A DNA stretch of 21,028 nucleotides from a virus, in IMG/VR virus record IMGVR_UViG_3300021365_000145, positions 1 through 21,028 of that record; one strand, 5' to 3'. The notes under the pieces are model-generated. The model was not told the origin of the DNA, did no database searches, and saw only the letters and a list, made by a program, of their open reading frames with translations. Shown here piece by piece: positions 107-19,710 of the stretch. The position numbers and the translations under genes are program-made. Position 1 is the first letter of the stretch. Every line of letters begins with the position of its first letter.

Positions 107-304
107 ATGAAAAAACAAGGATATAATTCAAGACTAGATGAATCTTTAGGTGCAAAGCACGGAAAGAAGTCTCAATCTTTTAAAGATCGTAGAGACGAAT
201 CAAAAGCTATGTCAAAAAAAAAGTTTGGTCACGCCTATGGGGGAGACTCAGGAATGTCATACAGACACTCTTCAAGTTGGAAAACTCATAAACATTTAAG
301 TTAA
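107..304 (+). CDS. Small highly basic phage protein, 65 aa
   Basis: This 65-residue protein is rich in Lys, Arg, His, Ser and Gly and has almost no hydrophobic core. The N-terminal half carries YNSRLDESLGAKHGKKSQS and a KDRRDESK stretch. From memory, similar small basic proteins occur in genomes of Bacteroidetes phages, always without assigned function. The composition would suit nucleic-acid binding or a minor virion or packaging-associated protein, but this is inference. It has no membrane segment, signal peptide or cysteine. The ATG follows a TAnnTTTG box by 18 bases and an AT-rich leader. Its TAA overlaps the next gene's ATG by one base (TAATG), which suggests translational coupling. Confidence 0.8.
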   Translation: MKKQGYNSRLDESLGAKHGKKSQSFKDRRDESKAMSKKKFGHAYGGDSGMSYRHSSSWKTHKHLS

Positions 305-462
305 TGGCAAAGAAAAAAAAAGTTACGGTAGTTAAGAAACCCAAAAGCGTTCAGCAAGTAGACTATGTTTCTAGAAATTCTGAAGTACAAAAAAGAATTG
401 ACGAAAGAAACAAGTATATTGAAAGCCTTTTAGAAAATAAAATAGAAGACAATGAAAAATAA
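304..462 (+). CDS. Small Lys-rich hypothetical protein, 52 aa
   Basis: The ATG at 304 shares its A with the stop codon of the preceding gene, and translation runs to a TAA at 460-462. The product has a poly-lysine head (MAKKKKVTVVKKPKS) and a charged, probably helical C-terminal half (about residues 26-52: EVQKRIDERNKYIESLLENK) that could form a short coiled coil. No family is recognised. The tight stop-start overlaps on both sides, with the next ATG at 452 lying inside its 3' end, argue that it is translated as part of the micro-gene operon. A scaffold or minor virion role is possible but unsupported. Confidence 0.65.
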   Translation: MAKKKKVTVVKKPKSVQQVDYVSRNSEVQKRIDERNKYIESLLENKIEDNEK

Positions 463-532
463 AGTAAAACCTTGTCAGTGCGGAAACACTCAGGATCCTA
501 ATGGAAACTGTGACGGATCGCATAGAAATTAA
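452..532 (+). CDS. CDGSH-like micro-protein (26 aa), putative Fe-S or Zn binder
   Basis: Translation from the ATG at 452, inside the end of the previous gene, gives 26 residues whose core is CQCGNTQDPNGNCDGSH. This resembles the CDGSH iron-sulfur motif C-x-C-x2-(S/T)-x3-P-x-C-D-G-(S/A/T)-H of mitoNEET-type proteins, whose 3-Cys/1-His set binds a 2Fe-2S cluster. The candidate ligands are C8, C10, C20 and H24. The spacing between the second and third Cys is nine residues rather than the canonical eight, and Pro is shifted accordingly. Little exists outside the motif: seven residues before and two after. CDGSH proteins are normally dimers with a larger fold, so cluster binding here is inference. 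The micro-ORF is supported by the intact motif and the overlap with its neighbour. Confidence 0.7.
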   Translation: MKNKVKPCQCGNTQDPNGNCDGSHRN

Positions 533-549
533 ATCAATAAATTAAAATA

Positions 550-711
550 ATGAGCAAATCAAAAGGTCTTGGAGACACGATCGAAAAAATCACAACGGCA
601 ACCGGAATTAAAGCAGTTGTGGAGAAAGTAGCGGCAGTTACTGGAAAACCATGCGGTTGTCAACAACGTAAGGATACTCTAAATAGAGTTTTTCCATACG
701 ACAATAAGTAA
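550..711 (+). CDS. Small protein with a CGC motif, 53 aa
   Basis: The ATG at 550 opens a 53-residue frame ending with TAA at 709-711. The N-terminal part (about residues 7-32, GLGDTIEKITTATGIKAVVE) looks like an amphipathic helix. It is followed by a Cys motif, KPCGCQQRKDTLNRVFPY (C35 and C37). From memory, small proteins with a CGCxxRKxxLN-type ending recur in flavobacterial phages and prophages and remain functionally unassigned. Two Cys alone could bind metal only as part of a multimer. It follows the CDGSH-like micro-gene after 17 bases, so two CxC micro-proteins sit side by side. No membrane segment is visible. Confidence 0.75.
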   Translation: MSKSKGLGDTIEKITTATGIKAVVEKVAAVTGKPCGCQQRKDTLNRVFPYDNK

Positions 712-1510: not shown

Positions 1511-1975
1511 ATGATTAGTAAACATATATCAGAAAAAGAGGCAACAAAATCTATAACTGCCTTAAGACTTGGTTTAGCTAATACTCCGAACGGAAATGCA
1601 TTAGCCAACATGAAACAACTTGCTGAAAAGATTTTTGAACCACTTAGAGAATATGTTGGTGGCCCTATAAAAATAAACAGCATGTATAGATCAGAAGCTC
1701 TCAATAAAGCGATTGGGGGAAGTAGCAGATCACAGCATTGCCAAGGAAACGCAATGGATCTGGATGACATCTACGGACATAAAACAAACAAAGAGATGTT
1801 TGATTTTATAAAAGAAAAATTAGACTTTGATCAACTAATCTACGAATTCGGAAATGAAGAAAATCCTGATTGGGTTCATGTCAGTTATGTTGATAAAGAA
1901 AAAAACAGAAATAGAGTTTTAAAAGCTGTTAGAGATAAAGGTAAAACAGTTTATATAGACATTACAGATAAATGA
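1511..1975 (+). CDS. Endolysin, M15-family zinc peptidase, 154 aa
   Basis: The protein is a compact single-domain cell-wall peptidase of the M15 (D-Ala-D-Ala carboxypeptidase / L-Ala-D-Glu endopeptidase-like, Peptidase_M15_3) type. Visible features are INSMYRSEALNKAIGGSSRS (about residues 55-74), SQHCQGNAMDLDD with candidate zinc ligands H76 and D83, and DWVHVSY with the third ligand H123. The spacing and the YR-S...LN..IGG..SQH signature are characteristic of the family. It has no signal peptide, so it needs a holin to reach peptidoglycan; candidate holins lie on both sides (1366-1503 and 2122-2520). There is no separate wall-binding domain. Its TGA overlaps the next gene's ATG (ATGA), indicating coupled translation with the lipoprotein. 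Confidence 0.9.
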   Translation: MISKHISEKEATKSITALRLGLANTPNGNALANMKQLAEKIFEPLREYVGGPIKINSMYRSEALNKAIGGSSRSQHCQGNAMDLDDIYGHKTNKEMFDFIKEKLDFDQLIYEFGNEENPDWVHVSYVDKEKNRNRVLKAVRDKGKTVYIDITDK

Positions 1976-2121: not shown

Positions 2122-2520
2122 ATGGGAAAAATATTAGCAAAATTATTTGGAGGAGCTGGCGCAGACATTGCCGGTAAAATATCAGGGATTATAGATAAAC
2201 ATACTTTTTCAAAAGAAGAAAGAGCTCAGTTAAAGCAAGAAATGGACAAGGTGTTTATTGAGGCTGAAGCGGATATGCAAAAAAATGTAACAGAAAGATG
2301 GAAGGCGGATTTGCAACACGGAAACTGGCTGACTAAATCAGTACGTCCTCTTACATTAATATTCTTAGTGGTATCTACAGTTATTATGGTGTTTATTGAT
2401 AGCGGGTTTATAACATTTGATGTTGAAGAAAAATGGACAGATCTTTTGCAGTTAGTTTTAATTACAGTGATTGGTGCGTATTTCGGAGGAAGGTCGATTG
2501 AAAAAGTAAAAAAAGGATAA
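2122..2520 (+). CDS. Holin of the GTA 3-TM holin type, 132 aa
   Basis: The N-terminal half (MGKILAKLFGGAGADIAGKI, then a charged helix with KEERAQLKQEMDKVFIEAEA) is followed by NWLTKSVRPLTLIFLVVS. The first hydrophobic segment covers about residues 75-96, a short loop contains DVEEKW, and a second hydrophobic segment spans about residues 106-121 and ends in GAYFGGRSIEKVKKG. This order of amphipathic N-terminus, W-[LT]-[ST]-K-x-V-R-P and a second TM ending YFGGRS, is typical of the GTA_holin_3TM family seen in phages and gene-transfer agents. It would form lesions that let the M15 endolysin out. It starts three bases after the lipoprotein stop and closes the lysis cassette. Confidence 0.85.
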   Translation: MGKILAKLFGGAGADIAGKISGIIDKHTFSKEERAQLKQEMDKVFIEAEADMQKNVTERWKADLQHGNWLTKSVRPLTLIFLVVSTVIMVFIDSGFITFDVEEKWTDLLQLVLITVIGAYFGGRSIEKVKKG

Positions 2521-4800: not shown

Positions 4801-7800
4801 ATGGCGATAAAATTTCTTAGTGGACAAACTATATCCGGAACTTTAACGGTATCTGGAAATGTACAAGGCGCTACGTTTAATGGTTTAGCCATAAACACTA
4901 CAGGTACTAATAATGTCGCTAATCAAATAGTAAGAACTCAAGCTAATGGTTATGTAAACTTTGGCTGGATCAACTCAGTATCTGGCAACCACACAGGAGC
5001 AATCACAAGAATTACAGCAAGCAACGATGCATATTTAAGATATGTAACACCAGCTCAATTTAGAACAGGTGTTACTGATGGGTTTTACGCTCCCTCATCA
5101 ACTGTAAGTGGAGTAACTTCAGTAGCAACTGGCAACGGATTAACTGGCGGAACAATTACTTCAACCGGAACGTTAACTATGTCTGGTAGTTATACTGGAG
5201 CATTTTCTGTCACAGGATTTACATCAAGCACAACAGGTTTTGGGATTAATTATGTTCCTGGTGCTACTGTACCTATGGTTATACTTGCTAACGCAACAAC
5301 TTATGGAATATTTTACAGAGAAGCATCGCCAGATCATATAGAATTTAAACATAATAATGCCGTAATGCAATCTTTTGACGGCAGTGGTAATGTTACCATG
5401 GCTGGAGACTTAACTGTTTCAGGAGGTGATATAACTTTAGGAGGTACAGGACGTATACAAGGTGTTGATACTGTTAGTGCAAGCACTGATGCTGCAAATA
5501 AAGCTTATGTAGATGCTCATCCAGGATCTGGAGGAACAGTAACATCGGTAGCTACCGGGAATGGATTAACTGGCGGAACAATTACTTCAAGCGGTACTTT
5601 AACAATGTCTGGTGATTACACGGGTAATTTTTCAATTACAGGCGCTAATCTTGCTGGAAATAGTTTTTCAGATCCTGATATAGTTTTAAGTATTACTGAC
5701 GAAGACACAACAGCTTCTATAAGAAATAAAATATCAGGTTCTACGGCTATAACAAAAGTTAGCGACGCTACAGCACCTGCGCCAGGATGTTTTCAGGTTA
5801 ATGGATCTTATTATCCACAAGGTTTTGGGCCTTCCTATAAAATTTCTGAAGGCGATGAATTTATTTTTGAATTATGGATAAGATATGTATCAGGCGCAGC
5901 CACTTATAATCTTTTATATGCTGGATCAAATTTTTATAATGCAGCTGGAACTTATTTAGGTAATTCACAAAGATATTGGGGTGAAGCGGCATTAAATATA
6001 AATGCTAATACTGGTACTGGCTGGTATCATGTATCTGGTACATTAGGCCCAACTAGAGGATCCGCCACTGGAGATATACCAACAACTGCTGAATCAATGA
6101 GGTTGTTATTTTTGTTTAATTATAATCCAAATGGAAGTATAGTAACAAATTATTGTGGTTTAAAAGTTTATAAATCAAATCCAACAGTAACTAAATTATA
6201 TAGAAAAACTCTAGGTAGTGAAGCAAGTAGCTCAGGTAGAAACAGAGATTTAGTTATTGATAGCGACGGTGATATTTTTGGAAAAGATATTACTGCAACG
6301 GGTACAGTAACTGCAACGGGTACAGTAACTGCACCAACTTTTGTTGGAGCTTTAACAGGTAATGCAAATACTTCTACAACTTTTAGTACCGGTAGAACAA
6401 ATTATAAAGGAGTGACTGACGGTGCAGTTGCTGGTCAGCTGATGTGGAAAAACTATGGTAATAATCACACTATTTTTGACGCATCTTCTTCGACATCACC
6501 AAATGGTGGGAGTGTTAATAACACTAACTCTGCTGTCGCATGGAGCGCAACTTACCCTACTCTTATGGGTTGGAATGGCACTAGCACTTATGGTGTCAGG
6601 GTTGATAGCGCAAGAATAGCAGATTCAGCTGCTAATCAAGGTAATTATCTGCTTTTAGCTGGTGGTACTATGTCAGGTGATATACAAATGCTCAGTAACA
6701 CATTGCGATTTGACCAATCAGGCACTAGAAGTTGGGCTATGAATGCTGCTAGTGGTAATCTTTTTATAAACTCAGGGGATAGTTTAGGTAGTGTTTCTTT
6801 AAATTGTGGATTAATTGTCGCTGACACACTTACAGCTAACAGTACGCTTTTTTTAAAAGACCGAATAACACTACCGGCATCTGGTTTAAGCTCAGTTAGC
6901 GGGCGACCAGCCTATAGTATATATCAAGAAGGTGGCGCTTGGACATCACCTTTTCCTGATTTGTGTATTGCTATGCACACAGGTATTAAATTCGGAGCAC
7001 ACGCAAGTTACAATGGAATGCGTTTTTACGATGATTATACTATGGCAACGCAAGTTATGTCAATTAATAATTCATCTGATCCATTAGGTGCAAACAACGT
7101 ATATGTTACTAATAGTCTACAAGCTGGTTCAAGCTTAAGAGCGCCGATATTTTATGATTCAAATGACACAGCTTATTATGTAAACCCAGCTACGGGTAGT
7201 AATTTAAAAGGTATTGTAACAAACACAAGCTCTAATACGGTAGGTTCTCAATTAAAAATATATACAACAACAAATCACCAATACCCTCAAATATACTCCA
7301 ACGGATCGCTTGAAGCAATGTGGAATTATAAAAATAGCGCAGCTGAGTGGTATGTTGGTATTAGAACAAGCTCTCAATTACTAGGCACTTCTGGCTTTCA
7401 TTTTTATAATACAACTTCAGGTCAAACTGTTGGTGGATGGAGTATAGATGGGAGTAGCTATTCTATTGTATCTTCAAGAGCACCAATATTTTATGATTCA
7501 AATAATACAAGTTATTATTTAGATCCAAGTGGCGCAAGTAATTTAAATGCAGGTACAATACAAGGGACATGGACAATGTCAACACAAAAAGCTTTAGTAG
7601 CAGACGACTATGGTAGAGGTGTTTATGGGTTGTATAACGCAAGTAGACTTCAACACATGTGGAGCATGGGAACCGCATATAATTTAGCGGACAATGGAAC
7701 AAGCGCCGGTAATTTATATGGTATGGCTTGGTCGCATCCAAACGCTGGTGGTGTTGCTGCAAACTTAAGTAATCATGGAGAGTTATTGCTTCTTAATGGT

Positions 7801-8895
7801 ACATATCAAGCCGCAATATCTGGGAGTATTAGATGTATAACAGATATGCGAACGCCTATTTATTATGACTCAAATAACACAGCCTATTATTTAAATCCAG
7901 CTAGTGATACATCAATAAACACTAAAGGTGCGTGGAGATGTGCCAGTAGTACATGGGACGGTGAATTTGCTGGTAAAATACAATATCATAGTAATTATTG
8001 GTATATGCAAACAACTAACGGGGTATATATTAGGAATGCATCAGGTGCTAATAATGTAACATTAGCTTCAAATGGTGTTTGTACAGCGGCTAATGATTGG
8101 AGAGCGCCTATATTTTATGATTCAGTTAATACAGCCTATTATGTGGATCCTGCTAGTACTAGTAATTTAAATGGACTAACAGTTGCTGGTACTATTACAG
8201 GAACTATTGAAACAGCTAATAAACTAGCCATTACAGGTTATCAAACAAATGGCCAAAGTTTTTATCAATCATCAGGTTCATTTGCAGGGTTTAGTGGTTG
8301 GCATAATTATTACATAGGTAATCACGGGAATGGCTCAAATTATTACAATACAACGATTGCATTTCCTTTTTGGGGGCCTCCAAGATACTCTAGATTAGAG
8401 AATAATGTATCTAGAGGGCCTTATAATTTTTTAACTAATGAAACCGATCAAACAATAGGGGTTTACTTACAAAGCACAACAAGCTTGCGCGCTCCTATAT
8501 TTTATGATTACAATAATACTGCGTTTTATTTAGATCCAAGCACTACAGGAACATCAGTAAATGTAGCGGGTGATGTTGTAGCTTATGCTAGTTCTGATAT
8601 TAGATTTAAAAACAATATTACACCAATAACAAATGCTTTAGATAAGTTAAGTAAGATAGGTGGTTACACTTTTGAGTGGAATGAAATATCTCACAAAGAA
8701 ACAGGTAAAAAAGATATAGGTGTAGTAGCGCAAGAGGTAGAAGAAATATTGCCAGAGATTGTGCAAACTAGATCTAATGGATACAAGGCTGTAGATTATC
8801 AAAAACTAACCGCACTGCTTATTGAGTCTGTAAAAGAACAACAAGTTATAATAAACGATTTAAAAACTAGAATAGAAACATTAGAAAATAATTAA
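4801..8895 (+). CDS. Long tail fibre with C-terminal Peptidase_S74 chaperone, 1364 aa
   Basis: This is the largest protein in the window. It begins MAIKFLSGQTISGTLTVSGN, an N-terminal pattern shared with the other S74 fibres. Two copies of VTSVATGNGLTGGTITS occur at about residues 105 and 247. A region around 286-470 without shaft repeats reads like a beta-sandwich, carbohydrate-binding-like insert (GDEFIFELWIRYVSG, GWYHVSG, YCGLKVYKS). Five RAPIFYDSNNTAYYLDP-type modules start at residues 780, 893, 1017, 1101 and 1230. The C-terminus is an intramolecular chaperone domain with SSDIRFKNNI: S1265 and K1270 are the expected catalytic Ser and Lys (S-D-x-R-x-K), and cleavage before S1265 would release about 100 residues that end in a coiled coil. 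The trimeric fibre binds host surface glycans or proteins (inference). Confidence 0.9.
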   Translation: MAIKFLSGQTISGTLTVSGNVQGATFNGLAINTTGTNNVANQIVRTQANGYVNFGWINSVSGNHTGAITRITASNDAYLRYVTPAQFRTGVTDGFYAPSSTVSGVTSVATGNGLTGGTITSTGTLTMSGSYTGAFSVTGFTSSTTGFGINYVPGATVPMVILANATTYGIFYREASPDHIEFKHNNAVMQSFDGSGNVTMAGDLTVSGGDITLGGTGRIQGVDTVSASTDAANKAYVDAHPGSGGTVTSVATGNGLTGGTITSSGTLTMSGDYTGNFSITGANLAGNSFSDPDIVLSITDEDTTASIRNKISGSTAITKVSDATAPAPGCFQVNGSYYPQGFGPSYKISEGDEFIFELWIRYVSGAATYNLLYAGSNFYNAAGTYLGNSQRYWGEAALNINANTGTGWYHVSGTLGPTRGSATGDIPTTAESMRLLFLFNYNPNGSIVTNYCGLKVYKSNPTVTKLYRKTLGSEASSSGRNRDLVIDSDGDIFGKDITATGTVTATGTVTAPTFVGALTGNANTSTTFSTGRTNYKGVTDGAVAGQLMWKNYGNNHTIFDASSSTSPNGGSVNNTNSAVAWSATYPTLMGWNGTSTYGVRVDSARIADSAANQGNYLLLAGGTMSGDIQMLSNTLRFDQSGTRSWAMNAASGNLFINSGDSLGSVSLNCGLIVADTLTANSTLFLKDRITLPASGLSSVSGRPAYSIYQEGGAWTSPFPDLCIAMHTGIKFGAHASYNGMRFYDDYTMATQVMSINNSSDPLGANNVYVTNSLQAGSSLRAPIFYDSNDTAYYVNPATGSNLKGIVTNTSSNTVGSQLKIYTTTNHQYPQIYSNGSLEAMWNYKNSAAEWYVGIRTSSQLLGTSGFHFYNTTSGQTVGGWSIDGSSYSIVSSRAPIFYDSNNTSYYLDPSGASNLNAGTIQGTWTMSTQKALVADDYGRGVYGLYNASRLQHMWSMGTAYNLADNGTSAGNLYGMAWSHPNAGGVAANLSNHGELLLLNGTYQAAISGSIRCITDMRTPIYYDSNNTAYYLNPASDTSINTKGAWRCASSTWDGEFAGKIQYHSNYWYMQTTNGVYIRNASGANNVTLASNGVCTAANDWRAPIFYDSVNTAYYVDPASTSNLNGLTVAGTITGTIETANKLAITGYQTNGQSFYQSSGSFAGFSGWHNYYIGNHGNGSNYYNTTIAFPFWGPPRYSRLENNVSRGPYNFLTNETDQTIGVYLQSTTSLRAPIFYDYNNTAFYLDPSTTGTSVNVAGDVVAYASSDIRFKNNITPITNALDKLSKIGGYTFEWNEISHKETGKKDIGVVAQEVEEILPEIVQTRSNGYKAVDYQKLTALLIESVKEQQVIINDLKTRIETLENN
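5113..5590 (+). repeat. Two-copy intragenic repeat in the first S74 fibre
   Basis: Two copies of a segment encoding VTSVATGNGLTGGTITS lie at 5113 and 5539. They share 28 identical bases (5137-5164 and 5563-5590, beginning GGATTAACTGGCGG). The spacing is 426 bases, so an exchange between the copies would remove 142 codons in frame. Confidence 0.8.
6292..6333 (+). repeat. 18-bp tandem repeat inside the fibre gene
   Basis: ACTGCAACGGGTACAGTA occurs twice exactly at 6292-6309 and 6310-6327, followed by a 6-base partial third copy. It encodes TATGTV-TATGTV in frame. The unit is a multiple of three, so slippage would change fibre length without a frameshift. Confidence 0.9.
7138..8560 (+). repeat. 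Five diverged RAPIFYD shaft modules
   Basis: Copies start at 7138, 7477, 7849, 8101 and 8488. Each encodes R-[AT]-P-I-[FY]-Y-D-S-x-[DN]-T-[AS]-[YF]-Y-[VL]-[DN]-P. They are 84 to 129 codons apart with different sequence between, so they look like conserved joints between fibre segments. They are diverged at DNA level, which suggests an old duplication. Confidence 0.85.
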
Positions 8896-9321: not shown

Positions 9322-12237
9322 ATGGCAATAAGAATATTAAGCAGCGAAAATATAACAGGTAACATAACTGTTAGCGGAACAGGAACTTTTGCAGGAGATA
9401 TTACTTTAGATGACGATTTAAATTTTACTACAAATGGCTTTGCAGACATATCAAATACTGGTACGGGCGCTATGCGATTTAAACCAAGCAGTCAAACACT
9501 TGCTTTAACTTTAACAAACGCTAACGCAGCTTTTGAAGGAAAAGTAGGAATTGGGACGACTTCACCTGCAAGAGAGTTAGAAGTACAAGGAGGGGGTAAT
9601 GTATATATAAGAGTAACTGCTTCAACAGATAATGATAGTGCGGCATTAGAGCTTAAGAATACACAAGAAATGTGGACTATAAGAAATGAAGATACTAATG
9701 CAGATGCTTTACATTTTAATAGTGATGGTGGTACTAAAATGGTTATTGAAACTGGAGGAAACGTAGGAATTGGAGAAACAAGTCCTAACGAAAAACTTCA
9801 CGTGAACGGAGGCACAGCTAATGTTGTAGCTAACTTTGAATCTACCGATGCTAAAGCGTATATATCATTTAAAGATTCTAGTACTACTAATACAGATACT
9901 GTGTTTTTAGGAGCAGAAGGTAATAATATGACTTTTTATGCAGGAAGTGCGAGTTCAGAAAGAATGCGTATAGACAGTTCAGGTAACGTTGGAATTGGAG
10001 AAGCAAGTCCTGATTCGCTTTTAACAGTTGGAGGAGATTTTACAGCAACTACTGCAAAACCAACAGTAAGTGTTTCTGATATGACAAATGGGGGTTCTTT
10101 AGGAATTAGAGGGTTATCGCCTATATTAGCATTTGACAAAACAGCTAGTGGTGTACCAAAAATATTAATGGATGGTGGAGGTTTAGAATTTAAAGATGGA
10201 ACATTAGATTCACAAGGTTCTGTCGATTTAAAAATAGATTCTTCAGGAAACGTAGGAATAGGAAAAACTACTTCTTTAACAAGTCATAGATTAAGCATTT
10301 TAAAAGGTGGTTCAAATCAACAACTTGGTTTGTATTATGATGAAACTAATGTAGCTATGTTTGGTGCTAGGTCTAATGGGGATGCTCAAATATATGCTTG
10401 GAACGGAAGCTCGTATAGAAATATACTACTTGGCGTAGATGGTAGTTCTACAGGTGGAAACGTCGGGATCGGGACGGATTCGCCTTCAAGTGGTGCTAAA
10501 CTTGACGTAAATGGAAGTTTAGCCATAGCTAATACAGGGCAACTTAATCTTACTCGTACTTTGAATACTAATAATCTTTGGTATGGGATGAGATATGATA
10601 ATAATGAAGTTCAAATTTACACTTATTACCCGTCAGATAGAAGTATAACTTTTAATACTGTGTCTGGGGGAACAGGAATTACCACTCAATTAATGAAAAT
10701 TGAAGCTGGTGGAAACGTAGGAATAGGAACTGATTCGCCTAGTAATAAGTTAGATGTTTTTGCTGCAAATAATTATGAAGGGATTGCACTTACTGATTCC
10801 GATGAAACATTGTGGAATATTTTAAAGTCAGGGAGTTCTGTAAACACCTCTTATTTTAATATGTTTAGTGAGGGAGTTACAAAAGTAAGAATACACGCGG
10901 ATAACGTTTCATATTTTAATGGCGGTAATGTCGGAATTGGAACGACTTCGCCTACTCTTGGTAAACTTCAGGTAGCAGGTAGTGGATATTTTGGTCCTGT
11001 AGGAACTGGTAATGCAACCACTAAAGCTGAAATGCAAAGTAATGCTGTATTGAGATTAAAGCCGCATGATAATAATTCTACTAATATGAATTTTGCGCAA
11101 GTTAATGGTGGTGGTGGCATGGGAATACAAGTAACTAATGGCCCAGGAACAGCAAATTGGGATATTGCTTTAAGTCCTTTTGGAGGCAACGTAGGAATCG
11201 GAACGACTTCGCCTGCTGAAAAATTAACTATTGATGGAACAGTTAGCGGTGCTTATGTAAGAATTAGCAATGCAGGCTCTGGGGATGTTTCTTCGGGTTA
11301 TATGATTTATAATGGCAGTAATTTAGATTTTAATGTTTATACAAATCCGACTTTTGGAAATACTACATTATTAACAAGAGAGGCTTTAGCAATTAGAGCA
11401 GGAGGCTCAGAAAGAATGCGTATAGACAGTTCAGGAAACGTCGGAATTGGTACGACTTCGCCTTCTTATCCATTAGATATTAATGGAAACATGGCTATTA
11501 GAGGTGCAAGCGGACCACAGTTATTGTTTTTTGAAACTGGTAGCTCATACACAGAAGCCATGCGATTATTAAGGTATCAAGATAAATTGATTTTAACTTA
11601 TGGTTGGAACGCTAATGAGGAAGCTATAACAATTGTTGGTGGAACTGGAAGTGATGTAGGAAACGTAGGAATCGGTAACACTTCTCCACAAACAACTTTA
11701 CATACTGGGCCTACAACCACAGTTACTAATGCATTTACAGCTAGATTTGCTGCAAGTAACTTTTTTGCAAGTGGCGGAAATAGTATGTTTTATGTTCCTG
11801 ATGCAGCTGCAAATATAATGATGTTTGGTAGCAATCAATTTGGAACCAATCAAATAGAATTTTACCATAAAAATCCAGGAACAAGTCAAGCTTATGTAGG
11901 GCGAATATCTACATCTGGTTCAGCAACTTCATACGTTACAAGTTCTGATTATAGACTAAAGGAAAATATTGTTCCAATAAGTGAGTCTTTATCTAGACTT
12001 AATCAATTAAAACCAAGTAGATTTAATTTTATAGAAGAACCAGGTAAGGTAGTAGATGGATTTATAGCGCATGAAGTACAAGATATAGTTCCTGAGGCTA
12101 TTGTAGGAGAAAAAGATGAAGTTGATGAAGAAGGTGGTATTGTACCACAAGGTATAGATCAAGCTAAGTTAGTGCCATTGTTAGTTGCAGCAGTACAAGA
12201 ATTAGAAGCAAGAGTAAAAGAATTAGAAAATAAATAA
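9322..12237 (+). CDS. Tail fibre with GNVGIG shaft repeats and C-terminal Peptidase_S74 chaperone, 971 aa
   Basis: The protein begins MAIRILSSENITGNITVSGT, the N-terminal pattern shared with the fibres at 4801 and 12736. The shaft is built of ten GNVGIGTTSP-type motifs spaced 70-88 residues apart, commonly preceded by MRIDSSG or a similar turn; this motif is common in phage fibres with repetitive beta structure. The C-terminal domain contains SSDYRLKENI with predicted catalytic S875 and K880 of the S74 family, GFIAHEVQDIVPEAIVG, an acidic insert (EKDEVDEEGG) and a final coiled coil with VPLLVAAVQELEARV. Autocleavage before S875 would leave an 874-residue mature fibre and a 97-residue chaperone. 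It lacks a following copy of the 120-aa partner; the gene at 12242 follows after four bases. Confidence 0.9.
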   Translation: MAIRILSSENITGNITVSGTGTFAGDITLDDDLNFTTNGFADISNTGTGAMRFKPSSQTLALTLTNANAAFEGKVGIGTTSPARELEVQGGGNVYIRVTASTDNDSAALELKNTQEMWTIRNEDTNADALHFNSDGGTKMVIETGGNVGIGETSPNEKLHVNGGTANVVANFESTDAKAYISFKDSSTTNTDTVFLGAEGNNMTFYAGSASSERMRIDSSGNVGIGEASPDSLLTVGGDFTATTAKPTVSVSDMTNGGSLGIRGLSPILAFDKTASGVPKILMDGGGLEFKDGTLDSQGSVDLKIDSSGNVGIGKTTSLTSHRLSILKGGSNQQLGLYYDETNVAMFGARSNGDAQIYAWNGSSYRNILLGVDGSSTGGNVGIGTDSPSSGAKLDVNGSLAIANTGQLNLTRTLNTNNLWYGMRYDNNEVQIYTYYPSDRSITFNTVSGGTGITTQLMKIEAGGNVGIGTDSPSNKLDVFAANNYEGIALTDSDETLWNILKSGSSVNTSYFNMFSEGVTKVRIHADNVSYFNGGNVGIGTTSPTLGKLQVAGSGYFGPVGTGNATTKAEMQSNAVLRLKPHDNNSTNMNFAQVNGGGGMGIQVTNGPGTANWDIALSPFGGNVGIGTTSPAEKLTIDGTVSGAYVRISNAGSGDVSSGYMIYNGSNLDFNVYTNPTFGNTTLLTREALAIRAGGSERMRIDSSGNVGIGTTSPSYPLDINGNMAIRGASGPQLLFFETGSSYTEAMRLLRYQDKLILTYGWNANEEAITIVGGTGSDVGNVGIGNTSPQTTLHTGPTTTVTNAFTARFAASNFFASGGNSMFYVPDAAANIMMFGSNQFGTNQIEFYHKNPGTSQAYVGRISTSGSATSYVTSSDYRLKENIVPISESLSRLNQLKPSRFNFIEEPGKVVDGFIAHEVQDIVPEAIVGEKDEVDEEGGIVPQGIDQAKLVPLLVAAVQELEARVKELENK
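9541..11691 (+). repeat. Ten GNVGIG-encoding DNA repeats in the second S74 fibre
   Basis: Copies of a GGAAACGTAGGAATTGG-like core occur at about 9541, 9757, 9982, 10246, 10456, 10711, 10924, 11185, 11434 and 11659. They are in frame and 210-264 bases apart. One pair extends to 29 identical bases (9955-9983 and 11407-11435, TCAGAAAGAATGCG...TTCAGG), encoding SERMRIDSSG. Weaker copies occur in the fibre at 12736. Confidence 0.9.
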
Positions 12238-12735: not shown

Positions 12736-15192
12736 ATGGCAATAAGAATATTAAGTGACGAAAATATAAGCGGTGAAGTTTTAATTGCAAGCGGTAAATA
12801 TTTGTCATGGGGCACAGCTGGTGCAACCTCTATTGAAGGAAGCACGGTAAGTAATAAATTACAGTTTAGAACCAACTCTACAAATGCTGTAATTATAGAT
12901 AGCTCTCAAAATGTAGGAATTGGAAATTTTACAAATCCAAGTGACGGTAATTTAGTAGTAAAAAAAGATGGTTTAAATACTGGAATTCCAAATTCTTTGA
13001 CAAGTGCCAGTTTTAGCGAAAGTGGTGGGCAGTTAAAAGGGTTAACAATAGGCTACAGAACAGATGAAACAACTGCTGTTATTGCCGCAAGAACTGCAAC
13101 AGGTGATATAGCTTTTATGGGTTATGATGGTGGATGGTTGGAAACTGCAAGATTTACAAACGACAATAAATTAGGAATAGGAACAAATGATCCTGATGGT
13201 AAAGTACATATTTTTAAAGGCAGTAATGGTGGAACCACATTAGGTACTGCATCAGATGAATTAGTTTTAGAAAACGACACGGATTGTGGTTTAACAATTC
13301 GAAGTGGTGCAGATAGCACGGGAGTAGTAAGTTTTGCATCGCCAACAGATCATAATGTTGGACAATTATATTATAACCATGATGACGATTCTATGGTTAT
13401 AAGAACCAACGATGCCATAAGAACAATTATTGGTAGCTCAGGTATAATGTATATTATGGGTGCTACAGCAAGCACAAACAACTCATTACAGTTACAATAT
13501 AATTCGACAGCAGGTTCTGCTGAAATATATTCTAAATCAACAGGTGGTAACACTACTTTTGAGTTTTACACAAGTAACTCAGGAACAACTACACAAAAAT
13601 TTAATATAGGTAGTTCTGGTGATGTTAAGATAACAACCAATGGTAAGTTTTTACAAGGTGTAAGAAATACTGGAAGTGCGACTATTGATATGATAGGTTT
13701 TGGAGCAGGAACAGATAGATTACAAATAAAAGGAGGAACAAGTGGAGGTGCGGAATCTATAGCGTTTTTTGATACCGCAGGTCAAATGGCTACATTTTAT
13801 AATTCCCGCTTTGGAATAGGAAATACTACTCCAAAATTTGCTCTCAACACGAATCTAGCCATGGAGGGTGCGTCTTTAGCCTACTTAGACGGGACATCTA
13901 ATAATCAAACAACAACAAACAATATAGGTGTTACTCACAATGCTTCAGGTTTCGGAGGAACTAATGGCGTACAAGGAGGGTTGTTTTTAGCTAATAATAA
14001 TAATGCTAATAACGCTCCTTCACCTATAATATTTTTTGGTGCTAGATCAGCATCTAATACATATAATCATGCTTATGCAGCTATATACGGTGTAAAAACT
14101 GGAGGTGGAGCAGATAGTAATTGGAATGTTGGGGAACTAACGTTTGCTACAGGTGACGGTACGGGCCCAAAAAGAAGAATGACAATTGATAAAGATGGAG
14201 ACGTAGGAATCGGAACCGCACCGTCAGCGGTTTTACACATTTACAACCAATACGATGTTACAGCTGATACTGATAAATGTGGAATTAGAATGACAAGAGT
14301 TGCGGGAGGATCTCAAAGCTGGTTATGGTCTTTAGGTCAATCAGCTGTTAGTAATGATTATTTTGGCCTTAGAGACATTACGCATGGAGTATATAAAATG
14401 ATGTTTAAAGAAGGAACTGGAACTCAAGTAATGTTTGGAAATCCTTCTAACAATGGAACTTTTGGTGCAAGTAATACTGTATTATCAATAAAAGGAAGCA
14501 CATCAGGTGGAGAGGGTATTTTACAAATAACGGGACTCGGTAACAATGCAACCGATAATGTTGGGAGAATTGATTTTCATAGTCAAGCAGAAGCAGACCC
14601 AATGTGTTCTATTAGGTCAGTTAGAGGAAATGCAGATGATGTTGGAGATTTAGAGTTTCACACAAATTCAGGTGGTGGAGCTCCATCTACAAGGATGATA
14701 ATTACTTCTGACGGTATAGTTGGAATAGGTGATTTAAACCCAACTTTAGCAACACGATTAGTTATTGCAGCGTCTTCAGGCTCAGGTAACGTATGTGACA
14801 TCCGTACAGGAACAACCGCTAATACTAATGTAGGCGCAATAGTTTTCAGAAATTCTGCATCTGCTTATTGTGGTCAAATTACAGTAAATGGTGCGACAGG
14901 TGTAACTTCATACTTATCAGCTTCTGACTATAGATTAAAAGAAGATTTAAAAGATTTTAAAGGCTTAGATTTAGTTTCCAATATTAAAGTATATGATTAT
15001 AAGTGGAAATCTGCTGATGAAAGAACTTATGGGGTAGTAGCTCACGAACTTCAAGAAGTGTTGCCTCAGGCTGTAAATGGAAATAAAGATGATGAACAAA
15101 TGCAAAGTGTTGATTATTCTAAAATAGTTCCATTACTAGTTGCAGCAATACAAGAACTAAAAGCAGAAATAGAATTATTAAAAAATAAATAA
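12736..15192 (+). CDS. Tail fibre with C-terminal Peptidase_S74 chaperone, 818 aa
   Basis: The start MAIRILSDENISGEVLIASG shares its first 20 bases exactly with the fibre at 9322. The shaft carries fewer and more diverged VGIG motifs (near 12910, 13168, 13807, 14200 and 14720), some glycine/serine-rich stretches, and RMIITSDG / RMTIDKDG turns before them. The C-terminal domain reads SASDYRLKEDLKDF with predicted catalytic S730 and K735, YGVVAHELQEVLPQAVNG, VDYSKIVPLLVAAIQELKAE and a final coiled coil. Cleavage before S730 would release about 89 residues. Together with the genes at 4801 and 9322 it gives three different self-maturing fibres in one locus. A 120-aa partner follows after 24 bases. 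Confidence 0.9.
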   Translation: MAIRILSDENISGEVLIASGKYLSWGTAGATSIEGSTVSNKLQFRTNSTNAVIIDSSQNVGIGNFTNPSDGNLVVKKDGLNTGIPNSLTSASFSESGGQLKGLTIGYRTDETTAVIAARTATGDIAFMGYDGGWLETARFTNDNKLGIGTNDPDGKVHIFKGSNGGTTLGTASDELVLENDTDCGLTIRSGADSTGVVSFASPTDHNVGQLYYNHDDDSMVIRTNDAIRTIIGSSGIMYIMGATASTNNSLQLQYNSTAGSAEIYSKSTGGNTTFEFYTSNSGTTTQKFNIGSSGDVKITTNGKFLQGVRNTGSATIDMIGFGAGTDRLQIKGGTSGGAESIAFFDTAGQMATFYNSRFGIGNTTPKFALNTNLAMEGASLAYLDGTSNNQTTTNNIGVTHNASGFGGTNGVQGGLFLANNNNANNAPSPIIFFGARSASNTYNHAYAAIYGVKTGGGADSNWNVGELTFATGDGTGPKRRMTIDKDGDVGIGTAPSAVLHIYNQYDVTADTDKCGIRMTRVAGGSQSWLWSLGQSAVSNDYFGLRDITHGVYKMMFKEGTGTQVMFGNPSNNGTFGASNTVLSIKGSTSGGEGILQITGLGNNATDNVGRIDFHSQAEADPMCSIRSVRGNADDVGDLEFHTNSGGGAPSTRMIITSDGIVGIGDLNPTLATRLVIAASSGSGNVCDIRTGTTANTNVGAIVFRNSASAYCGQITVNGATGVTSYLSASDYRLKEDLKDFKGLDLVSNIKVYDYKWKSADERTYGVVAHELQEVLPQAVNGNKDDEQMQSVDYSKIVPLLVAAIQELKAEIELLKNK

Positions 15193-17208: not shown

Positions 17209-17483
17209 TGAATACAAAAGAAATTAAAGAACAAATCATAAAGGCCGGTGAAAAGGCTGTTATACAACTAATCAAAGTAGCAAAAGAAGATATTATTAAA
17301 TATGATAAGGATGATGAGCTGGCGGCGGATAGATTAAAGAATGCGGCAGCTACAAAAAAACTAGCCATCTTTGATGCTTTTGAAATCTTAAAACGTATAG
17401 AAGACGAAAAGCAATTACTAGAGGGTATAGATGTAACTAAAAATAACACACCTAAAGGATTTGCTGAATCAAGATCTAAATAA
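17208..17483 (+). CDS. Short helical protein, candidate small terminase subunit, 91 aa
   Basis: The ATG shares its first base with the preceding stop (TAATG). The protein is almost fully helical and charged: KEIKEQIIKAGEKAVIQLIK, then KDDELAADRLKNAAATKKLA and FDAFEILKRIEDEKQLLEG. It lies immediately upstream of the large terminase and overlaps it by 23 bases, which is where a small terminase (DNA recognition) subunit is normally found. At 91 residues it is short for TerS and I do not see a clear helix-turn-helix, so the assignment rests on position and helical content. It could instead be a packaging accessory protein. Similar short genes precede terminase in related phages from memory. Confidence 0.6.
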   Translation: MNTKEIKEQIIKAGEKAVIQLIKVAKEDIIKYDKDDELAADRLKNAAATKKLAIFDAFEILKRIEDEKQLLEGIDVTKNNTPKGFAESRSK

Positions 17484-19710
17484 CTTATATACTACACTAA
17501 CTAGAGTAGTTCCAAAAAATGTTTTATCTACAAAAAATAAAGCAAGAACTTGGGTTTATGGTTATAACGAAAAATATAATTTTGTTGTTATATCTAAATC
17601 AGGTCAAATAGGTGATGTTATAGAAATAAATGGCCTGCATATTGCGCTACCAAAACCTCCTACAAAAGTATACTCAAGGTCAAAAAAGAAAGAAGATCAG
17701 TATTGGGAAGCGTCTGAAATAAGTAAAGAACTAAAAAGAATACAGTCAATATTTCAGTGGCATGAAGCGCCAATACAATTCAAAAACAAATGGGTGGATT
17801 ATATCGAGCAAGAGTTTGATAAAAGAGAAGAGGGTTTTTGGTTTATGAATAACGGGGTTCCTACTTACATTACAGGAACACATTACATGTATTTACAATG
17901 GACAAAGATTGACGTTGGCCATCCAGACTTTAGAGAAGCAAATCGTTTGTTCTATATATTCTGGGAGGCATGCAAGGCTGATAAAAGAAGTTTTGGTATG
18001 TGTTACTTAAAAATAAGACGTTCAGGATTTTCATTTATGAGCTCGTGTGAGGGCGTGAATACGGCTACAATCACTAAAGATTCTAGAATAGGTATACTAT
18101 CAAAAACTGGTGCGGATGCAAAGAAGATGTTTACTGACAAGATAGTACCTATATCAAACAACTATCCTTTCTTTTTTAAGCCTATACAAGATGGTATGGA
18201 TAAGCCTAAAACAGAATTGGCTTATAGAGTTCCAGCTTCTAAGATTACTAAAAAGAATATGTATACAGTAAGTGAAGAGGAGCTTGAGGGATTAGATACA
18301 ACAATTGACTGGAAGAACACATCTGATAACAGTTATGATGGTGAAAAATTACAACTATTAATACATGATGAAAGCGGTAAATGGGAGAGGCCAGAAAATA
18401 TATTAAATAACTGGCGTGTTACTAAAACATGTTTAAGATTGGGTAGTAAAGTTATAGGTAAGTGTATGATGGGATCTACATCAAATGCGTTAGATAAAGG
18501 TGGTAGAAATTTTAAAGATTTATTTGAGTCATCTGATTGCAGAAACAGAAACTCTAACGGACAAACAAAAAGCGGTTTATATAATCTGTTTATTCCTATG
18601 GAGTGGAATATGGAAGGGTTTATTGACATGTATGGCATGCCTGTATTCAAAAATCCTGACAAGCCTGTTAAAGGAATAGACAAAGAACCTATTAAACAAG
18701 GTGCTGTAGACTACTGGAGCAATGAGGTTGAATCATTAACTTCTGATCCTGATGCTTTAAATGAATTTTATAGACAGTTTCCAAGAACAGAATCACATGC
18801 CTTTAGAGATGAAAGCAAACAGTCGTTGTTTAATTTAACTAAAATATACCAACAAATAGATTATAATGACTCTATAAACATGGGGCATTTTATGACACAA
18901 GGATCTTTTCATTGGAAAGATGGTATAAAAGATTCTAAGGTAATCTGGAGCCCAAATAAAAGAGGTAGATTTTTTGTAACTTACATCCCTAAAGCTTCTC
19001 TTCAAAACAATGTGATTACGAAGGGTGGAAAGATGTATCCAGGGAATGAACATATTGGATCGTTTGGCTGTGACTCTTATGATATTTCAGGAGTTGTAGT
19101 AGGTAAAGGTTCTAACGGAGCTTTACATGGGCAGACAAAATTTAATATGGATGATGCGCCTAGTAATGAATTCTTTTTAGAATATATTGCCAGACCTCAA
19201 ACCGCTGAGATATTTTTTGAAGAAGTTTTAATGGCGTGTATATTTTATGGCATGCCAATATTATGTGAAAATAATAAACCTCGTTTATTGTATCATTTTA
19301 AAAATAGAGGATACCGAGGCTTTTGTTTAAACAGACCGGATAAAACTTATAATAAGTTATCTAAGACTGAAAGAGAATTAGGAGGTATTCCAAATTCATC
19401 TGAAGATGTTAAGCAATCTCACGCCTCAGCGATTGAGTCGTATATTGAGAAATATGTAGGATTAGATTTTGAAGGAGATTATAGAGAAAAAGACGATATA
19501 GGTAGTATGTATTTTCAAAGAACACTAGAAGACTGGGCTAAATTTGACATAACAAACAGAACAAAGTTTGATGCTGCAATTAGTTCTGGTTTAGCAATTA
19601 TGGCAAATCAAAAACACTTGTATACACCCGTTCAAAAACAATCAAAAATAAGCATTAACTTTGCAAGATATAACAACAAGAACTCAGTAAGTCAATTACT
19701 TAATAAATGA
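17461..19710 (+). CDS. terL: Terminase large subunit (packaging ATPase-nuclease), 749 aa
   Basis: The ATPase half carries a Walker A-like KIRRSGFS (K184-S191), preceded by GFWFMNNGVPTYITGTHYMY, and a Walker B LQLLIHDE (D303, E304). A block NNYPFFFKPIQDGMDKP (about 236-252) recalls crAss-like phage terminases. The nuclease half has SFGCDSYDISG with acidic D538/D541, PILCENN with E603 and RTKFDAAISSG with D704, consistent with the RNase H-like active site. It cuts the concatemer and drives DNA into the prohead through the portal. Its first in-frame start is a TTG at 17461; the first ATG lies over 100 codons downstream, beyond conserved sequence. The TTG lies inside the previous gene, implying coupling. 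The next gene overlaps its stop by ATGA. Confidence 0.93.
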   Translation: MLNQDLNNLYTTLTRVVPKNVLSTKNKARTWVYGYNEKYNFVVISKSGQIGDVIEINGLHIALPKPPTKVYSRSKKKEDQYWEASEISKELKRIQSIFQWHEAPIQFKNKWVDYIEQEFDKREEGFWFMNNGVPTYITGTHYMYLQWTKIDVGHPDFREANRLFYIFWEACKADKRSFGMCYLKIRRSGFSFMSSCEGVNTATITKDSRIGILSKTGADAKKMFTDKIVPISNNYPFFFKPIQDGMDKPKTELAYRVPASKITKKNMYTVSEEELEGLDTTIDWKNTSDNSYDGEKLQLLIHDESGKWERPENILNNWRVTKTCLRLGSKVIGKCMMGSTSNALDKGGRNFKDLFESSDCRNRNSNGQTKSGLYNLFIPMEWNMEGFIDMYGMPVFKNPDKPVKGIDKEPIKQGAVDYWSNEVESLTSDPDALNEFYRQFPRTESHAFRDESKQSLFNLTKIYQQIDYNDSINMGHFMTQGSFHWKDGIKDSKVIWSPNKRGRFFVTYIPKASLQNNVITKGGKMYPGNEHIGSFGCDSYDISGVVVGKGSNGALHGQTKFNMDDAPSNEFFLEYIARPQTAEIFFEEVLMACIFYGMPILCENNKPRLLYHFKNRGYRGFCLNRPDKTYNKLSKTERELGGIPNSSEDVKQSHASAIESYIEKYVGLDFEGDYREKDDIGSMYFQRTLEDWAKFDITNRTKFDAAISSGLAIMANQKHLYTPVQKQSKISINFARYNNKNSVSQLLNK

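Follow-up and report, generated by a model that had tools for sequence, protein, structure and literature searches.

The window, the whole stretch of 21,028 nucleotides analysed here, is a 21-kb virus contig (IMG/VR record IMGVR_UViG_3300021365_000145) that carries genes for a large terminase subunit, an M15 endolysin and a holin. In tblastn searches the terminase was closest to those of an environmental podovirus and of Flavobacterium, Cellulophaga and Tenacibaculum phages, which points to a probable host among the Bacteroidota. The features relevant to the small gene studied here are as follows.

107..304, + strand: 65-aa small protein (QGYNSRLDESLG...), common to other Bacteroidota-type phages (12 loci)
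304..462, + strand: 52-aa basic ORF upstream of the CDGSH ORF, found in near kin only (3 loci, among them L119 and L012, which are both one contig)
452..462, + strand: 11-nt overlap between the stop of ORF 304-462 and the start of the CDGSH ORF, seen in the sequence
452..532, + strand: 26-aa naked CDGSH-module protein, translation MKNKVKPCQCGNTQDPNGNCDGSHRN, assigned from homologues and dN/dS
473..523, + strand: CxCG-x8-CDGSH core with the putative metal ligands Cys8, Cys10, Cys20 and His24, in invariant alignment columns
550..711, + strand: 53-aa CxC microprotein (KPCGCQQRKDTLNRVFPY) containing KPCGCQQR, of a very common family
1511..1975, + strand: M15 peptidase endolysin (PF08291, E 5.8e-17; phrog_894, E 1.1e-33)
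2122..2520, + strand: holin (GTA_holin_3TM / phrog_3427)
17461..19710, + strand: terminase large subunit (phrog_6681, E 2e-175; tblastn)

The ATG of the 452-532 ORF lies only two codons beyond the preceding in-frame stop, and its start is therefore essentially fixed. The translation bears out an earlier note on this DNA, which described a CxC...CDGSH micro-ORF with one extra residue ahead of the third Cys. The core at 473-523 reads C-Q-C-G-N-T-Q-D-P-N-G-N-C-D-G-S-H, with seven residues ahead of the first Cys and two beyond the His, and the gap between the second and third Cys is nine residues, one more than in the CDGSH consensus. The overlap with the upstream neighbour recorded in the same note is also present, and the identical 11 nt recur in L012 and L013, the two near relatives, suggesting that translation of the CDGSH ORF may be coupled to that of ORF 304-462. 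A +1 frameshift that would fuse ORF 304-462 into the CDGSH frame was considered and rejected, as the ATG is conserved and the family stands alone elsewhere.

The second CxC microprotein that was said to adjoin the micro-ORF is located at 550-711 and has at least 585 relatives in IMG/VR. It belongs to an abundant phage family without a name, with the pattern KGLGDT...CGC.RR.DTLNRVFPY, in which CGC is conserved. The idea that it is a partner of the CDGSH protein was abandoned, because within fetched flanks of up to 2.5 kb a CDGSH ORF was found near only 2 of 80 relatives, both of them kin of the window.

Relatives of the micro-ORF were sought with a degenerate DNA pattern for CxCG-x8-CDG[S/T]H. 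The in-frame pattern matched at least 120 IMG/VR contigs, compared with 11 matches for a one-base-short, out-of-frame control, and it also matched at least 120 bacterial contigs. When 300 Flavobacteriaceae genomes were sampled, the forward pattern was present in 15 and a reversed control pattern in none. Chance is excluded as the source of these matches, since those of the in-frame pattern far outnumber those of the controls. Most are stand-alone ORFs of 22-35 aa, and among the matches listed 65 viral and 100 bacterial ORFs do not exceed 35 aa. Against 50,697 annotated phages nothing usable came from tblastn with the 26-mer or with longer relatives, nor did it from blastn with a fused form. 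BLAST is weak for queries of this length, and these negatives do not prove absence, although the motif was missing from two 42-kb phage stretches that were read directly.

Because the pattern matches had been selected by the motif, conservation was re-tested on loci fetched without it. The phage set was fetched via the gene for a membrane protein that in one group of phages lies ahead of the micro-ORF, and the bacterial set via YceI in a genus sample centred on Polaribacter. Where the membrane-protein-gene loci had enough sequence, the ORF was directly downstream in 45 of 78. Conservation of the four ligands in relatives had been proposed as a check, and Cys-Cys-Cys-His is retained in all 45 phage copies (two of them CDSSH), which are not independent and comprise 21 distinct DNA cores. 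An intact ORF was found 49-93 nt 3′ of YceI in 10 of the 30 Polaribacter-centred loci, with the four ligands and identical spacing in all 10. The frameshifts or decay in homologues that would have spoken against a gene were confined to one copy, L352, a decayed remnant just 3′ of YceI in which the first Cys is replaced by Phe, a stop lies just upstream and there is no start codon. The others of the 20 YceI loci that lack an intact ORF show nothing recognisable at this position, and most relatives of the endolysin in the window are likewise without an intact copy. Pairwise comparison of the window with L013 by the Nei-Gojobori method gave pS 0.75 and pN 0.09, and omega from the same method was 0.13 for the phage membrane-protein-gene set and 0.29 for the Polaribacter set. 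Overall dN/dS is thus about 0.1-0.3, and the reading frame is under purifying selection. Given this conservation, the dN/dS values and the absences at the YceI and endolysin loci, 452-532 is a real, selected and dispensable gene.

The motif of CISD proteins comprises 17 residues with eight between C4 and C13; C2, C4, (S/T)7, P11, C13, D14, G15, (S/T/A)16 and H17 are universally conserved, and positions 1 and 12 are hydrophobic (PMC3174974). Lin et al. 2011 (PMC3174974) grouped these proteins, also called zf-CDGSH, as types 1-7 and concluded that their iron-sulfur module depends on a beta-sandwich dimerisation module with N-strand and P motif, always in a pair. The window protein has all four ligands in the arrangement C-x-C ... 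C-x3-H, and its T13, D21, G22 and S23 correspond to (S/T)7, D14, G15 and (S/T/A)16, positions of which (S/T)7, D14, G15 and (S/T)16 are kept across the family except in the two phage CDSSH copies. However, its motif is one residue too long, which breaks the 17-residue length, and P11 is lost, with P-x-G-x-C in place of P-x-C. It also has no N-strand, P motif or beta-sandwich, for which 26 residues leave no room. By the criteria of Lin et al. it is not a CISD protein, because the spacing is broken, P11 is lost and there is no space for the sandwich, but it may work like a CDGSH site. The CDGSH-like identity proposed earlier thus holds for the four conserved ligands and for the best family and structure leads, all of which are CDGSH proteins, and fails for the standard CISD spacing, P11 and the sandwich.

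Profile searches point to the same relationship. The window protein itself has no Pfam match (the gathering score of PF09360 is 29.5 bits), whereas 19 of 38 family members matched PF09360 at E <= 1, all below threshold, with a best E of 0.005 and scores of 14.7 and 16.6 bits for the examples scored. The alignments, where inspected, span only profile positions 32-48, the ligand half. When the family profile was compared with the PDB, the best matches were the CDGSH proteins 3tbn and 3tbm (E 0.22-0.24). The AF2 model obtained for a relative of 30 aa (pLDDT 74) shows single-residue bridges and a 4-residue helix. Searched with Foldseek against 350,542 PDB chains, it gave exactly two matches at E <= 10, 3tbm (type 4) and 3tbo (type 3), both CDGSH proteins and with rmsd 1.4-1.5 A over 22 columns; as the E-values of about 8 are alone not significant and Foldseek also draws on sequence, the weight of this result lies in the agreement.

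Two further forms connect the micro-ORFs with CDGSH proteins. L227, an 80-aa two-CDGSH protein from a Gammaproteobacteria MAG (PF09360, 61 bits; single-sequence AF2 model unusable, pLDDT 42), has a first motif, CRCGKSSNPLGNCDGSH, that shares both the nine-residue spacing and the P-x-G-N insertion, but it has the full domain context, its second motif is canonical and it resembles type 6. Naked modules with canonical spacing are common in phages, with 12 residues or fewer ahead of the first Cys in 66 of 124 matches. A representative, L536 (MKKCTCGESQTKPTCDGSHKNKGK), is likewise a stand-alone ligand module with almost nothing N-terminal, but modules of this type have eight-residue spacing, retain P11 and have non-lysis neighbours. 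These two forms argue for common descent of the micro-ORF family and CDGSH proteins rather than convergence.

The window protein is a member of a microprotein family that is widespread in both cells and viruses, a point absent from the earlier note. The family was found in marine Bacteroidota, Paenibacillus/Brevibacillus, Verrucomicrobiota and phages, and no description of a stand-alone CDGSH microprotein family was found in the open-access literature. The module also occurs fused to other proteins, namely YceI (L239), a PSP1/RicT-like protein (L230) and the phage XkdF protease (L118).

A CDGSH-like module forms the C-terminal tail of XkdF-type serine protease proteins in L118, L137, L143, L144, L147, L151, L201 and L206, where the domain was recognised as PF14550 in L118 and by sequence likeness in the other loci. 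An extra Cys pair precedes the module in these fusions (e.g. QCRKNGGC). In Cryomorphaceae/Flavobacteriales the module is at the C-terminus of a PSP1-domain (RicT-like) protein (L230:2554-3735 and L321:5977-7128). In L239 (902-1564) and L254 it is at the N-terminus of YceI, with the domain confirmed for L239, and this fusion partner is the same gene that adjoins the naked module in other genomes. Verrucomicrobiota, mostly Opitutae, carry tandem long-spacing modules, two per protein and mostly in proteins of 54-92 aa (L228, L240, L265, L266, L268, L281, L285, L296, L309, L313 and L324), which are possibly an intramolecular pair. Paenibacillus species have a near-invariant 25-aa form (MGKCACGNTQNTEGNCDGSHAKKDK) that has no fixed neighbour, some copies being near genes for SLH-domain proteins (L242, L246, L248, L259, L267, L284, L301, L312, L318, L326 and L327). 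In L419, L437 and L441, relatives of the membrane protein used to fetch the phage set lack the micro-ORF and have a Cys tail of their own instead (KCKCGKNECKCEGE, QCTCGANDCICKGD).

In bacterial loci, among the matches listed, YceI is the nearest upstream gene in 57 of 97 and FMN_red the nearest downstream gene in 16 of 56. MarR (19 loci), HxlR and DoxX genes recur near the bacterial copies; pirin-like genes were recognised by eye only. In L231, from Bacillales, the micro-ORF is closely flanked by a MarR-like gene upstream and a flavodoxin-fold reductase-like gene downstream, again as judged by eye. MhqR, a MarR-type repressor, controls quinone resistance in Staphylococcus (PMC6798810), and by analogy a link between the bacterial micro-ORF and quinone or electrophile stress is plausible. 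Phage modules that are naked and canonically spaced adjoin genes for 2OG-Fe(II) oxygenase (29 loci), AhpC (13) and CMD (13); in L524-L643 such micro-ORFs lie beside 2OG-Fe(II) oxygenase, AhpC/TSA peroxiredoxin or carboxymuconolactone decarboxylase genes. Together with these genes they could form a phage peroxide/redox module. Of the three neighbourhoods found, two have redox or iron chemistry in common. The third, around the naked long-spacing phage copies, is composed of lysis genes, and because it is unlike the bacterial YceI neighbourhood, function may differ between phage and bacterial copies.

The explanation that we consider moderately probable is that 452-532 is a genuine late gene of the phage and encodes a naked CDGSH module, predicted to bind metal and to have a redox or iron-related role. 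The computations establish that the frame is coding, that the ligands are conserved, that the module is fused to other proteins and that redox and lysis genes lie near it. We infer its metal binding, cluster type, role as carrier or sensor and timing as follows. The protein would represent the approximately 17-residue CDGSH [2Fe-2S] loop cut free of the beta-sandwich, with one residue inserted ahead of the third Cys. One [2Fe-2S] cluster is the most likely occupant of the site formed by Cys8, Cys10, Cys20 and His24, more so than a single Fe or Zn ion. The protein could then be a small carrier or sensor, redox-labile or responsive to iron, and dock on a partner protein; relatives have the same module fused to XkdF protease, to YceI and to PSP1 proteins. 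Bacterial relatives of the same size appear to belong to YceI/FMN-reductase redox operons, and the phage would most likely supply an activity of this bacterial type late in infection, the micro-ORF being expressed together with the lysis genes and its translation coupled to that of the gene before it. The requirement for a beta-sandwich in the CISD structure work, the loss of P11, the sub-cut-off profile scores, the non-significant Foldseek E-values, the dispensability of the gene and the contrast between its phage and bacterial neighbourhoods all count against this explanation. The more specific proposition, that the 26-residue protein, lacking the sandwich, wraps a [2Fe-2S] cluster by itself or with the help of a partner and is a portable redox unit of bacteria and phages that is put to late use, is tentative and somewhat doubtful. 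A role in the virion, also raised in the earlier note, is not supported for the stand-alone form.

Zinc is the main rival to [2Fe-2S] for the window protein. The same four ligands would then hold Zn (or a mononuclear Fe) in a knuckle, a purely structural or interaction micro-finger without redox chemistry. Three Cys and one His spaced as CxC...CxxxH also make a workable Zn site, and a length of 26 residues is usual among zinc knuckles but very small for an Fe-S protein. The terminal fusions to XkdF, YceI and PSP1 would also fit an interaction tag. However, the residues of the cluster module that are not ligands, (S/T)7, D14, G15 and (S/T)16, are kept in the motif-independent sets, the sequence and structure searches both lead to CDGSH Fe-S proteins, and the neighbours are redox enzymes. 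Pfam scans of the window protein and 38 relatives matched no zinc-knuckle family. With these points on either side, a Zn knuckle appears unlikely.

It is less likely still that the phage protein regulates the lysis cassette by direct action on holin or endolysin, perhaps as a lysis timer that depends on redox state or metal, instead of serving general redox or iron metabolism. Among the matches listed, an M15 endolysin or holin gene lies within 2 kb in 56 of the 80 loci with naked long-spacing phage copies, as detected with profiles built partly from these same loci, compared with 2 of 31 contigs with fused phage forms. Zero lysis counts for other phages are a weak control for the same reason. 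Single-linkage tblastx grouping of the phage loci was dropped because shared lysis genes themselves joined the groups, and nucleotide groups were used in its place; 10 of these 19 groups show the linkage but nine do not. The lysis genes are before or after the micro-ORF and, in the representatives read, on the same strand. None of 100 bacterial relatives has such genes nearby, and late-gene co-expression suffices for the clustering, so that the lysis neighbourhood of the phage copies may only reflect late expression.

That 452-532 is no gene, only an accidental reading frame that happens to contain a striking motif, might be suspected from its 26 codons, its overlap with another ORF and the lack of an annotated-phage or Pfam match for the window protein itself, but is highly improbable in view of the conservation in phages and bacteria, the selection on the frame, the control patterns and the fusion of the module to known proteins.

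If the naked module that we favour does bind [2Fe-2S], CDGSH clusters would not need a beta-sandwich dimer, and the window protein would rank with the smallest iron-sulfur proteins in nature and offer a minimal model on which the mitoNEET site could be tested. The searches also expose a widespread family of genes of about 25 aa that profile libraries have missed, for which the bacterial YceI, FMN reductase and MarR-HxlR operons and the phage AhpC-CMD and lysis neighbourhoods offer a functional lead.

Elsewhere in the window, the large fibre-like proteins at 4801-8895, 9322-12237 and 12736-15192 share similar ends (e.g. YRLKEDLKDFKGLDLVSNIKVYDYKWKSADERTYGVVAHELQEVLPQAV), which, judged by eye only, resemble intramolecular chaperone (Peptidase_S74-type) domains.
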